A stretch of 35,465 nucleotides of DNA from the NCBI GenBank assembly GCA_947625615.1, contig CANQPB010000023.1, positions 1 to 35,465 of the forward strand. Reading direction: 5' to 3'. The translations under genes and the position numbers were made by a program. Positions 4,696-24,788 of this stretch are shown here, piece by piece. Below the pieces are notes generated by a model, which was not told where the DNA came from, made no database searches, and saw only the letters and a list, made by a program, of their open reading frames with translations. The DNA is from an uncultured Clostridia bacterium. GTDB lineage: Bacteria; Bacillota; Clostridia; Oscillospirales; Ruminococcaceae. The first letter of the stretch is position 1. Each line of letters starts with the position of its first letter.

Positions 4696-6060
4696 TTATT
4701 TTAATATGTCCGAAATGTCGCCGAGGCGGTTTTGGGAGGATATCACCACTACCCTGTCCCCCGGAATTATCATGTCGGAGCCGCTCGGGATTATGGTGCG
4801 GCGGCCTCTCATGATTCCGCCGATGAGGATATTCGGCTTGAGGCTTATATCTTTAAGGGGCACACCGGTGAGCTTCGATTCGGCGGCCACCTTGAATTCA
4901 AGCGCTTCGGCCTTGCCGTCGAAGATCTTATAGAGCGTCTCTACGGCCGACGAGCCGGAGGAATTTTCGAGGGCTCTGGCATACTGCACAAGAACGCTCG
5001 AGGTGATCTCTTTCGGGGAGACAACGCTTTCAAGGCCCATCTTCTTGGCCATGGCGGCAAGCTCGTCGCGGTTTATCTTGGTGACCGTCTTCGGGACGTT
5101 CTGCATTGAGGCGAACACCGAGAGCAGGATATTTTCCTCGTCTATGCCGGTGAGGGAGACAAAGGCGTCGCAGCCGTCGAGGCCCTCCTCCATCAAAAGC
5201 TCATGCTCGGCGCCGTTGCCCCGAATTATCGTAGTGGAGGGCAGCACCGCCGTAAGCTCGGCGCAGCGCTGCTCGTCCTGCTCGATTATCTTAACGCCGC
5301 TCGAACCGACCTCCTCAAACATCTGCGCGAGGTAAAAGGCGGTCTTGCTGCCGCCGAGAATGATTATGTTCTTCGCCTGTTTTCTTAGGGAATTGAGCAT
5401 TCTCATAAGCTTCTGCATTTCGCTCTGCGAGGCGGTGAGGCCTATTTTGTCCCCTGCCTGGAGGGTAAAGAAGCCGTTGGGGATATAAACCTCCTCGCCG
5501 CGCTGAACGCAGCATATCAGAAATTGGGCGTCGTATTTCTTTCTTATCTCTATGAGATTTTTGCCGCAGAGGGCGCTCTTCTCGGTGAGGCGGAATTCTA
5601 TGATCTCGAGGCTGCGGCGGGAAAACGTCTCGATTTTAAGCGCCGAGGGGAATTTCAAGATGTTGAAGATCTCTCGGGCGGCGCTCTGCTCGGGGTTTAT
5701 TGCCATGGCGAGTTCGAGATGCTGCCGCAAAAAGCCGAGGCTGGAATCGTTGTATTCGGGATTTCTTATGCGGGCGATGGTGTTTTCGGCGCCCATCTTC
5801 TTGGCCAAAAAACAGCTCAGCATGTTAAGCTCGTCCGATTCGGTCATGGCGACAAAAAGCCCGCAGTCCGAGGCTCCCGCCTCGATGAGGGTGTCGCAGT
5901 CGGCGGCGTTGCCGCACACGCCCATGACGTCATAGATATTGGTGAGCTCGGTGATAACCGCGCTGCTCTTATCGACGGCGACGACGTCGTGCCCCTCGGC
6001 GGCAAGATCGCCAAGCACCGCCGAGCCGATTTTTCCGCAGCCCGCAATAATTATCTTCAT
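4696..6060 (-). CDS. trkA: TrkA, NAD-binding K+ channel regulator (double RCK)
   Basis: Peripheral cytosolic subunit that gates TrkH. The 454 aa hold two RCK units, each with an N-terminal Rossmann lobe and a C-terminal RCK_C lobe. The first Rossmann motif is GCGKIGSAV at residues 8-16, with acidic VAVD after it. The second, GGSKTAF (about residue 236), has lost the strict GxGxxG. RCK_C lobes follow at about 140-220 and 370-454. The ATG at 6060 is chosen over an upstream in-frame ATG at 6132 because GGAGG lies about 8 bases before it, the protein then begins at the family's usual MKIIIAG, and the upstream ATG falls inside the promoter. It is transcribed with trkH from TTGCAA-17-TAAAAT. Confidence 0.93.
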   Translation of the reverse strand: MKIIIAGCGKIGSAVLGDLAAEGHDVVAVDKSSAVITELTNIYDVMGVCGNAADCDTLIEAGASDCGLFVAMTESDELNMLSCFLAKKMGAENTIARIRNPEYNDSSLGFLRQHLELAMAINPEQSAAREIFNILKFPSALKIETFSRRSLEIIEFRLTEKSALCGKNLIEIRKKYDAQFLICCVQRGEEVYIPNGFFTLQAGDKIGLTASQSEMQKLMRMLNSLRKQAKNIIILGGSKTAFYLAQMFEEVGSSGVKIIEQDEQRCAELTAVLPSTTIIRGNGAEHELLMEEGLDGCDAFVSLTGIDEENILLSVFASMQNVPKTVTKINRDELAAMAKKMGLESVVSPKEITSSVLVQYARALENSSGSSAVETLYKIFDGKAEALEFKVAAESKLTGVPLKDISLKPNILIGGIMRGRRTIIPSGSDMIIPGDRVVVISSQNRLGDISDILK

Positions 6061-22951: not shown

Positions 22952-22980
22952 TTGTAATCCTCGGAAAAATGTAGTATACT
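22952..22980 (+). promoter_or_regulatory. Promoter of the Fe-S scaffold/GGGtGRT operon
   Basis: TTGTAA, 17 bases, TATACT, 49 bases before the ATG at 23030. Between this and the divergent permease promoter (22,709-22,951) I see no gene; a short GGAGC-GCTCC hairpin with a T run lies at 22,889-22,909. Confidence 0.8.
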
Positions 22981-23029
22981 GTTTCTGCGAATATTCTATC
23001 CCCAATATACCGAAAGGAGAAATTCAAAA

Positions 23030-23722
23030 ATGAACTATTCACACGAAGTTGAACAGATGTGCATGGTAGCCAAGGGCCCGAAGCACGGCCCCGCTCCCCT
23101 TCCCGAAGAGGGCAAGTGGGTTGAAGCCAAGCAGATCGGCGACATTTCCGGCTTCACACACGGAATCGGCTGGTGCGCCCCTCAGCAGGGAGCCTGCAAG
23201 CTCTCGCTGAACGTCAAGGAGGGCGTAATCGAAGAGGCTCTCGTTGAGACCATAGGCTGCTCGGGAATGACCCATTCGGCCGCCATGGCCGCGGAGATCC
23301 TCCCCGGCAAGACGATTCTTGAGGCCCTTAACACCGACCTCGTCTGCGACGCCATAAACACCGCCATGCGCGAGCTGTTTTTGCAGATCGTCTACGGCAG
23401 AACGCAGTCGGCCTTCTCGGAGGACGGCCTTTCAATCGGCGCCGGCCTTGAAGACCTCGGCAAGGGCACCCGTTCGCAGGTAGGCACAATGTACGGCACA
23501 AAGGCCAAGGGCGTAAGATATCTTGAAATGGCCGAGGGCTACGTCACGAGAATGGCCCTTGACGAGGACGATCAGGTTATCGGCTACGAATTCGTCTCGC
23601 TGGGCAAGATGACCGATTTCATCAAGAAGGGCGACGATCCCAACACCGCATACGAAAAGGCCAAGGGCACTTACGGCAGATTTGCAGACGCCGCAAAGTA
23701 CATCGACCCGAGAAAGCAATAA
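23030..23722 (+). CDS. IscU/NifU-like iron-sulfur scaffold-like protein
   Basis: 230-aa protein whose central part resembles the NifU_N/IscU fold: ALVETIGCSGMTHSAAMAAEIL (Cys77) is the equivalent of the segment around the second scaffold cysteine. Other cysteines are 11, 49, 56 and 106. The classical third scaffold cysteine near the C-terminus is not apparent, and the ~90-residue C-terminal extension is unlike IscU. It may therefore be a dedicated assembly or partner protein, not a general scaffold. Codon use is strongly biased to C- and G-ending codons (GCC, AAG, ATC, CTC), as in highly expressed genes. AAAGGAG precedes the ATG. The GGGtGRT gene follows after 21 bases. Confidence 0.85.
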   Translation: MNYSHEVEQMCMVAKGPKHGPAPLPEEGKWVEAKQIGDISGFTHGIGWCAPQQGACKLSLNVKEGVIEEALVETIGCSGMTHSAAMAAEILPGKTILEALNTDLVCDAINTAMRELFLQIVYGRTQSAFSEDGLSIGAGLEDLGKGTRSQVGTMYGTKAKGVRYLEMAEGYVTRMALDEDDQVIGYEFVSLGKMTDFIKKGDDPNTAYEKAKGTYGRFADAAKYIDPRKQ

Positions 23723-23743
23723 GACAGTAAGGAGGTAAAGAAT

Positions 23744-24745
23744 ATGGCTTTATTTGAAAACTATGAGAGAAGAATCGACAAAATAAACGCGGTTCTTGCT
23801 CAGTACGGTATCTCCTCTGTTGAGGAATGCAAAGAGATCACCCTTGCTAAGGGGATCGACTGCGATAAGATAGTCCGCGAGACCCAGCCCATCTGCTTTG
23901 AAAACGCCGTCTGGGCCTACACCGTAGGCTGCGCTATCGCCATAAAGAAGGGCTGCAAGAAGGCCGCAGACGCCGCCGTCGCCATCGGCGAGGGGCTTCA
24001 GAGCTTCTGCATACCCGGCTCGGTCGCCGAAAACAGAAAGGTCGGCCTCGGCCACGGAAACCTCGCTTCCATGCTTTTGTCCGAATCCACCGAATGCTTC
24101 TGCTTCCTTGCCGGCCACGAGAGCTTTGCCGCCGCCGAAGGCGCCATAAAGATCGCCCTCAACGCCAACAAGGTAAGAACCAAGCCGCTCCGCGTTATCT
24201 TGAACGGCCTCGGCAAGGACGCCGCCTTCATCATCTCGAGAATCAACGGCTTCACCTATGTTGAAACCAAGTTCGATCCCTTCACCGAGCAGGTTGAGGT
24301 CGTCTACGAAAAGGCCTACTCGAACGGCCCGCGCGCCGACGTTAAATGCTACGGCGCCGACAACGTCCCCGAGGGCGTGGCCATAATGAAGCTTGAGAAC
24401 GTCGGCGTTTCGATCACCGGCAACTCGACCAACCCGACAAGATTCCAGCACCCCGTCGCCGGCACCTACAAGAAATGGTGCGTTGAAAACGGCGTCAAAT
24501 ACTTCTCCGTCGCTTCCGGCGGCGGCACCGGCAGAACGCTTCACCCCGACAACATGGCCGCCGGCCCCTCCAGCTACGGCATGACCGACACCATGGGCAG
24601 AATGCACTCCGACGCCCAGTTCGCCGGCTCCTCCTCCGTCCCCGCCCACGTTGAAATGATGGGCCTCATCGGCATGGGCAACAACCCGATGGTTGGCGCT
24701 TCCGTCGCCTGCGCGGTGGCGGTTGAAGAGGCTATGAAAGCTTAA
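23744..24745 (+). CDS. GGGtGRT-family protein of unknown function
   Basis: 333-aa cytosolic protein carrying the defining SGGGTGRT motif (about residue 260), followed by LHPDNMAAGPSSYG and a C-terminal Ala/Gly-rich MVGASVACAVAVEEA. It matches the conserved family named for this motif, whose reaction is unknown. It is rich in cysteine (for example CDKI, PICFE, GCAIAIKKGC, SFCIPG, ECFCF), suggesting a metal or Fe-S site, which fits the scaffold-like gene 21 bases upstream. AAGGAGG stands before the ATG. Codon bias is as extreme as in its partner, and a perfect terminator ends the operon. I infer an abundant enzyme with a cofactor built or delivered by its neighbour. Confidence 0.88.
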   Translation: MALFENYERRIDKINAVLAQYGISSVEECKEITLAKGIDCDKIVRETQPICFENAVWAYTVGCAIAIKKGCKKAADAAVAIGEGLQSFCIPGSVAENRKVGLGHGNLASMLLSESTECFCFLAGHESFAAAEGAIKIALNANKVRTKPLRVILNGLGKDAAFIISRINGFTYVETKFDPFTEQVEVVYEKAYSNGPRADVKCYGADNVPEGVAIMKLENVGVSITGNSTNPTRFQHPVAGTYKKWCVENGVKYFSVASGGGTGRTLHPDNMAAGPSSYGMTDTMGRMHSDAQFAGSSSVPAHVEMMGLIGMGNNPMVGASVACAVAVEEAMKA

Positions 24746-24761
24746 TCACCTGATTCAAAAA

Positions 24762-24788
24762 ATCCCCGACGGCGTCGGGGATTTTTTT
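24762..24788 (+). terminator. Terminator of the Fe-S scaffold/GGGtGRT operon
   Basis: ATCCCCGAC, GGC loop, GTCGGGGAT, then a run of seven T; perfect stem. Confidence 0.95.

Follow-up and report, generated by a model that had tools for sequence, protein, structure and literature searches.

The window, the whole stretch of DNA analysed here, is 35,465 nt long and comes from an uncultured Clostridia bacterium of the Ruminococcaceae (assembly GCA_947625615.1, contig CANQPB010000023.1). It contains a genuine two-gene unit on the forward strand, in which gene A encodes a NifU-like protein and gene B, beginning 21 nt after A, a GGGtGRT protein (PF14057). The original prediction had described a self-contained operon with a good promoter, AGGAGG ribosome binding sites and a terminator. 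Both open reading frames, their spacing, the promoter and the terminator were recovered (Table 1), but the AGGAGG motif precedes B alone, the site of A being GAAAGGAG.

Table 1. Features of the A-B unit, in positions of the window
Feature	Position	Strand	Description
Promoter	22952..22980	+	-35 TTGTAA, -10 TATACT, spacing 17 nt; 9/12 consensus positions
Ribosome binding site of A	23012..23019	+	GAAAGGAG, from sequence
Gene A	23030..23722	+	NifU_N-like subunit, 230 aa, invariant C49/C77/C106; proposed metal-bearing subunit
Ribosome binding site of B	23730..23735	+	AGGAGG, from sequence
Gene B	23744..24745	+	GGGtGRT protein (PF14057), 333 aa; proposed substrate-binding subunit
Intrinsic terminator	24757..24787	+	hairpin -19.6 kcal/mol, z -4.6

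The terminator hairpin was matched by 1 of 200 shuffles, and elements like the -35 and -10 of the window precede A, as judged by eye, in most of the printed loci of the genus, with L017 as an exception. ENC is 31.2 for B, the lowest among the 22 genes of the window, and 34.6 for A, the fourth lowest, with PNP (33.3) and a short low-GC3 gene (34.4) close to A; the gene names in this comparison are mostly the analyst's own labels. The uniform codon use ascribed to the pair stands in part: ENC is low, both genes are enriched in GCC and ATC and A clearly in AAG, but CTC shows no such enrichment. The high expression proposed for the pair also holds, and a study of chicken caecum reports high GGGtGRT expression (PMC11204068).

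A and B form an obligate pair. Among 123 loci, a set that includes the window's own and in which at least one contig was fetched twice, 120 have A immediately before B on one strand, and the other three are contig edges; GGGtGRT genes lacking a scaffold-like partner, the check put forward with the original prediction, were met at these edges only, an outcome in its favour. The intergenic gap ranges from -1 to 136 nt, apart from a single case of 637. In the phylum an identical 19 of 299 genomes carry A and B, at 20 places each and side by side, and an identical 10 of 72,556 plasmid records hold them. Pairwise distances of the two proteins correlate as well (Spearman 0.80 over 130 loci, uncorrected for shared ancestry). 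On a quick tree the Bacillota label requires four changes, which hints at transfer between phyla. Besides A, B and overlapping frames, no gene cluster recurs in more than 10 of the loci L044-L136.

Several loci bear additional elements in or around the pair. Integrase-like genes lie about 110-350 nt past B at L048, L063, L070, L082 and L124-L128, several of these genes standing at the start of viral contigs, and phages or elements may use the 3' end of B as their attachment site. A GA-cis RNA (RF02987, 67.8 bits) is found between A and B at L030 (1391-1473), as is a small annotated hypothetical gene in a Parabacteroides locus (L134, 3800-3991). One genome holds two copies of the pair, at L037 and L154 (G246:C94), one of them ordinary and the other divergent and without a fluoride riboswitch.

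The relationship of A to NifU is distant. Its match to NifU_N (PF01592) is borderline, with E 2.4e-4 and 21.7 bits in one search and 22.5 bits in another against a cut-off of 22, and its best PDB match is a NifU (E 5e-4), which agrees with the likeness to IscU/NifU around Cys77 noticed originally. About 115 residues follow the NifU-matched part. A was also said to lack an obvious third scaffold cysteine, a view that the alignment overturns, as C49, C77 and C106 are present in all 135 aligned A rows (C56 is kept in 132). When A is aligned with NifU profiles (68 columns, hhalign probability 95%), C77 falls on the second scaffold cysteine, Gln52 and Gly54 of A stand where a scaffold has its first cysteine and the Asp, and C106 is unaligned, so that the three cysteines and Asp of a scaffold are not found at the aligned places. 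Nor does A reach the NCBIfam equivalog cut-offs for NifU, IscU and SufU, scoring 25.2, 21.3 and 19.1 bits against 187.9, 192.4 and 92.5. The genome of the window encodes a separate, canonical NifU (E 8.4e-51). Three conserved cysteines are what the mechanism of [4Fe-4S] hydro-lyases calls for, and A has them in every aligned row, the cluster itself being putative.

B is a full-length member of its family, matching PF14057 over residues 4-330 (E 3.6e-196, 651.1 bits, cut-off 27), and its full-length relatives are 61-100% identical to it. A Pfam search of B gave nothing significant besides this family, PDB searches for remote homologues returned one spurious match alone (E 0.12, 0.29, 0.89), and the accessible portions of open-access papers naming GGGtGRT give no function for it. 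B had been introduced as a Cys-rich member of the family; the membership is secure, but the cysteines are not conserved family-wide, none being invariant among 134 aligned B rows. Invariant polar residues in the same rows include H104, H125, E126, D159, R166, N227, R233, H236, K243, R264, D269, R286 and H302. Since the cysteines of A are invariant and none of B's is, a conserved cysteine site is possible only on A. In nine sequences designated type II, C89 and C118 of B are jointly lost, which, with the lack of any invariant cysteine, makes it unlikely that B is a Cys-ligated client. Pfam scans gave no enolase-family match (PF00113, PF03952) for either protein, and PDB and Pfam searches no sequence kinship of the pair to any enzyme of known reaction.

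A fluoride riboswitch (RF01734) lies upstream of the pair in 9 of 48 scanned loci, spread over three phyla. Two of the 48 contain only a B fragment, and wider upstream stretches were covered for 12; two of the nine riboswitches are visible only in such stretches. The Rfam scan covered 11 of the 80 loci L044-L123, a set that also contributed 17 of the 63 sources to which model R1 was applied. Six riboswitch loci belong to the phylum of the window (L151, L152, L153, L168, L169 and L172), and the others are a Vibrio locus (L131, Pseudomonadota) and two Persicobacter loci (L132 and L133, Bacteroidota). At L151-L153 B is followed by crcB, crcB and DUF190 genes (eight of the nine assigned by Pfam, the DUF190 gene of L153 by similarity), while L169 has crcB, DUF190 and MFS genes upstream of A. 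A CLC gene stands between riboswitch and A at L132, 466 nt before A, and L168 brings together MutS-like genes linked to a riboswitch, the A-B pair and, about 5 kb away from it, a DUF190 gene paired with enolase. The nine type II pairs share changes at W48 and H82 of A and at C89, N106, C118 and E304 of B; six have the riboswitch, one more has crcB directly upstream, and nothing of the kind was found in two. The fluoride link is not limited to type II, because the Vibrio and Persicobacter pairs retain C89 and C118. The window's own locus has no RF01734 match and thus falls outside a fluoride-riboswitch regulon, and 11 other loci of the 48, mostly from gut bacteria, have no fluoride riboswitch either. 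At L174 and L175 a fluoride riboswitch, a dynamin-like gene and DUF190 are followed by B fragments that appear to be broken copies. Fluoride inhibits enolase, which is also found under fluoride riboswitches (PMC11139923).

The link of the pair to iron, another element of the original prediction, is upheld by published data. With iron, a GGGtGRT spot of Clostridium pasteurianum was 7.1-fold (early) and 2.2-fold (late) higher and two spots of its NifU-like neighbour 2.4- and 3.7-fold higher (early); two enolase spots were higher without iron, by 4.1- and 4.8-fold early and 4.0- and 1.8-fold late (PMC5395762). In Bacteroides thetaiotaomicron the pair is down 11- to 12.8-fold upon iron depletion, in a paper that makes no mention of enolase (PMC10434189). 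A signature search confirmed by Pfam placed enolase in three A-B loci, L168 and those of Clostridium sp. D43t1 (L094) and Faecalibacillus faecis (L118), the gene being divergent from A in the latter two, both of them gut loci. At L118 a perfect 10-nt inverted repeat with a 4-nt loop (4869-4892) lies upstream of A, beside the divergent enolase. In the A-eno gap of L094 there is one perfect Fur box, at 5033-5047, and a second copy with one mismatch at 4970-4984, and the 13 kb locus has three Fur-box matches with at most two mismatches, against 0.41 expected, a number reached by 3 of 200 shuffles. The L094 layout is that of an iron-sparing switch, in which the Fur boxes may control the enolase gene.

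Enolase is an enzyme of glycolysis and is treated as universal. A rumen genome survey found about half of the sequenced Butyrivibrio to be without it, and a search there for a complementing gain of function gave no substantial insight (PMC6118326). Further enolase-negative strains occur in Prevotella and the Lachnospiraceae (PMC6118326, PMC6912079), and the enzyme is also missing from Endomicrobia (PMC11257099, PMC12483993) and from Oscillibacter valericigenes, for which the authors of the genome paper speculated about an alternative enolase-like enzyme (PMC3558957). Pseudobutyrivibrio has been described as having an incomplete glycolytic pathway (PMC7523725), and in a 2024 review the enolase substitute was still an open gap (PMC11187502). 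In a rumen metaproteome, GGGtGRT is listed for Pseudobutyrivibrio ruminis and a NifU scaffold, perhaps identical with A but perhaps not, for Butyrivibrio hungatei (PMC7035244), and the pair is carried by Butyrivibrio fibrisolvens 16/4 (L115). In the open-access literature (subscription journals lay outside the scope), the matches listed include no paper that assigns an enolase role to A-B and none that connects fluoride or crcB with GGGtGRT, and no paper was found that joins a fluoride riboswitch with NifU.

The fluoride and iron clues led to a search for enolase (PF00113, E 1e-20 or better) in genomes already searched for B, 41 related genomes comprising 25 of the genus (G000-G024) and 16 from other families. 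A-B only was found in 23, enolase only in 14, both in one (G034) and neither in three (G007, G013, G016). Put differently, 23 of 24 A-B genomes are without enolase and 14 of 17 genomes without A-B have it (Fisher p 2.6e-7, a statistic that overstates independence, the genomes being related); three of the 24 carry B as fragments located at contig ends. A small number of evolutionary events may underlie the pattern in the 25 genomes of the genus. The 16 genomes from 16 other families of the order give seven with A-B only, eight with enolase only, one with both and none with neither, and the 35 genomes that are at least 90% complete give 19, 13, 1 and 2, respectively.

The genome of the window (99.24% complete) yielded no enolase candidate in the PF00113 search, and it has GAPDH, pgk, tpiA, gpmI (iPGM) and PFK. 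In Firmicutes eno often comes next after gpmI. Here, pgk, tpiA and gpmI follow one another in that order on one strand of contig C10, the genes after gpmI are on the other strand, and GAPDH is on contig C3. This reading of glycolysis genes covered 1,196,103 of 2,168,673 bases, and pyruvate kinase was not found within that 55% of the genome. Enolase is also present in some organisms that carry the pair (G034, L094, L118, C. pasteurianum and Bacteroides ihuae, the control genome), so that A-B would not be the sole enolase in every case.

Within the genus, SUFBD is present in 0 of 16 pair-bearing genomes versus 6 of 9 without the pair. The six SUFBD genomes are also the six enolase genomes, all without A-B, and the genus seems to be divided into two metabolic lineages. 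The exclusion of SUF suggested at first a role in Fe-S assembly, an idea dropped as a lineage effect because the exclusion is gone at phylum scale: the 19 pair-bearing genomes of the phylum draw include 10 with full SUF, two with a weak SUF match and seven with none listed, and seven of 10 named pair-bearing genomes have a SUF match. The distribution of A-B follows the absence of enolase, and not Fe-S assembly systems in general.

Taken together, A-B is probably a two-subunit, iron-dependent replacement for enolase, unrelated to the ordinary enzyme in sequence, with a putative activity that would convert 2-phosphoglycerate to phosphoenolpyruvate and water. The evidence is stronger for the pair rendering enolase dispensable than for the exact reaction. 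C49, C77 and C106 of A would hold an iron-sulfur centre with one iron open for the substrate hydroxyl, an arrangement modelled on the [4Fe-4S] hydro-lyases, and the base, along with the contacts to phosphate and carboxylate, might come from the invariant His, Arg, Lys and Asp residues of B. An organism that has both enzymes would rely on A-B while iron is abundant and turn to magnesium enolase under iron scarcity, and in some cells A-B may be induced once fluoride blocks the magnesium enzyme.

The genome distribution by itself shows solely that enolase becomes dispensable, and the searches found no sequence relation to enzymes of known reaction. Both points leave room for a bypass, in which A-B would turn 2- or 3-phosphoglycerate into another product, such as pyruvate and phosphate, or reach phosphoenolpyruvate by another route. 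This seems unlikely, as co-induction with fluoride resistance and siting beside enolase appear to fit the same reaction best. The original prediction had instead cast A as a dedicated scaffold from which B, its client enzyme, receives an Fe-S cluster. The NifU/IscU likeness of A, the iron-dependent expression and the obligate pairing all suit that reading, and the pairing and the iron link are the parts of it that survive. We nevertheless consider it very unlikely: B has no invariant cysteine, a canonical NifU is encoded separately, Gln52 and Gly54 occupy the places of the first NifU cysteine and Asp, and the enolase pattern would go unexplained unless B alone were the enolase.

The riboswitch, together with CrcB, DUF190 or CLC genes at some loci, could point to a fluoride-protection system, with the enolase pattern as a lineage effect among 41 genomes that are, after all, related. 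The same pattern recurs across 16 families, no riboswitch was found at the window's locus or in the 11 scanned loci mostly from gut bacteria, and high GGGtGRT expression is reported for chicken caecum (PMC11204068), all of which render this explanation very improbable. On the preferred reading of A-B as an enolase replacement, glycolysis would be completed in many gut bacteria, the widespread GGGtGRT family would gain a function, iron supply would be tied to glycolysis, and fluoride resistance would acquire a metabolic arm. We lean, with less assurance, towards a fuller account, in which A-B would be an iron-sulfur 2-phosphoglycerate hydro-lyase and the first enolase that does not belong to the enolase superfamily. 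Its parts would be a NifU-like subunit put to a new use and a member of an orphan family; it would have spread among gut anaerobes, would stand in for magnesium enolase under fluoride and, in bacteria with both enzymes, would form an iron-sparing switch together with a magnesium enolase under Fur control.

The proposed enzyme can be set beside four known systems. With canonical enolase (PF00113/PF03952) it would share its reaction, and the two have a complementary distribution and common fluoride and iron contexts, yet Pfam scans show no match to the enolase families for A or for B. The [4Fe-4S] hydro-lyases include class I fumarase, aconitase and L-serine dehydratase; A resembles them in its three cysteines and, as proposed, in the elimination of water, but they have no Pfam sequence relation to A or B, and the cluster of A is putative. 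Compared with the IscU/NifU/SufU scaffolds, A aligns over 68 columns with C77 on the second scaffold cysteine, but it differs in having Gln52 and Gly54 in place of the first Cys and Asp, an unaligned C106, a long C-terminal part, a constant partner in B and a score of 25 against a 188-bit NCBIfam cut-off. The GGGtGRT family (PF14057) counts the window's B as a full-length member at 651 bits, and what distinguishes the present account of that family is the function and the partner proposed for it here.
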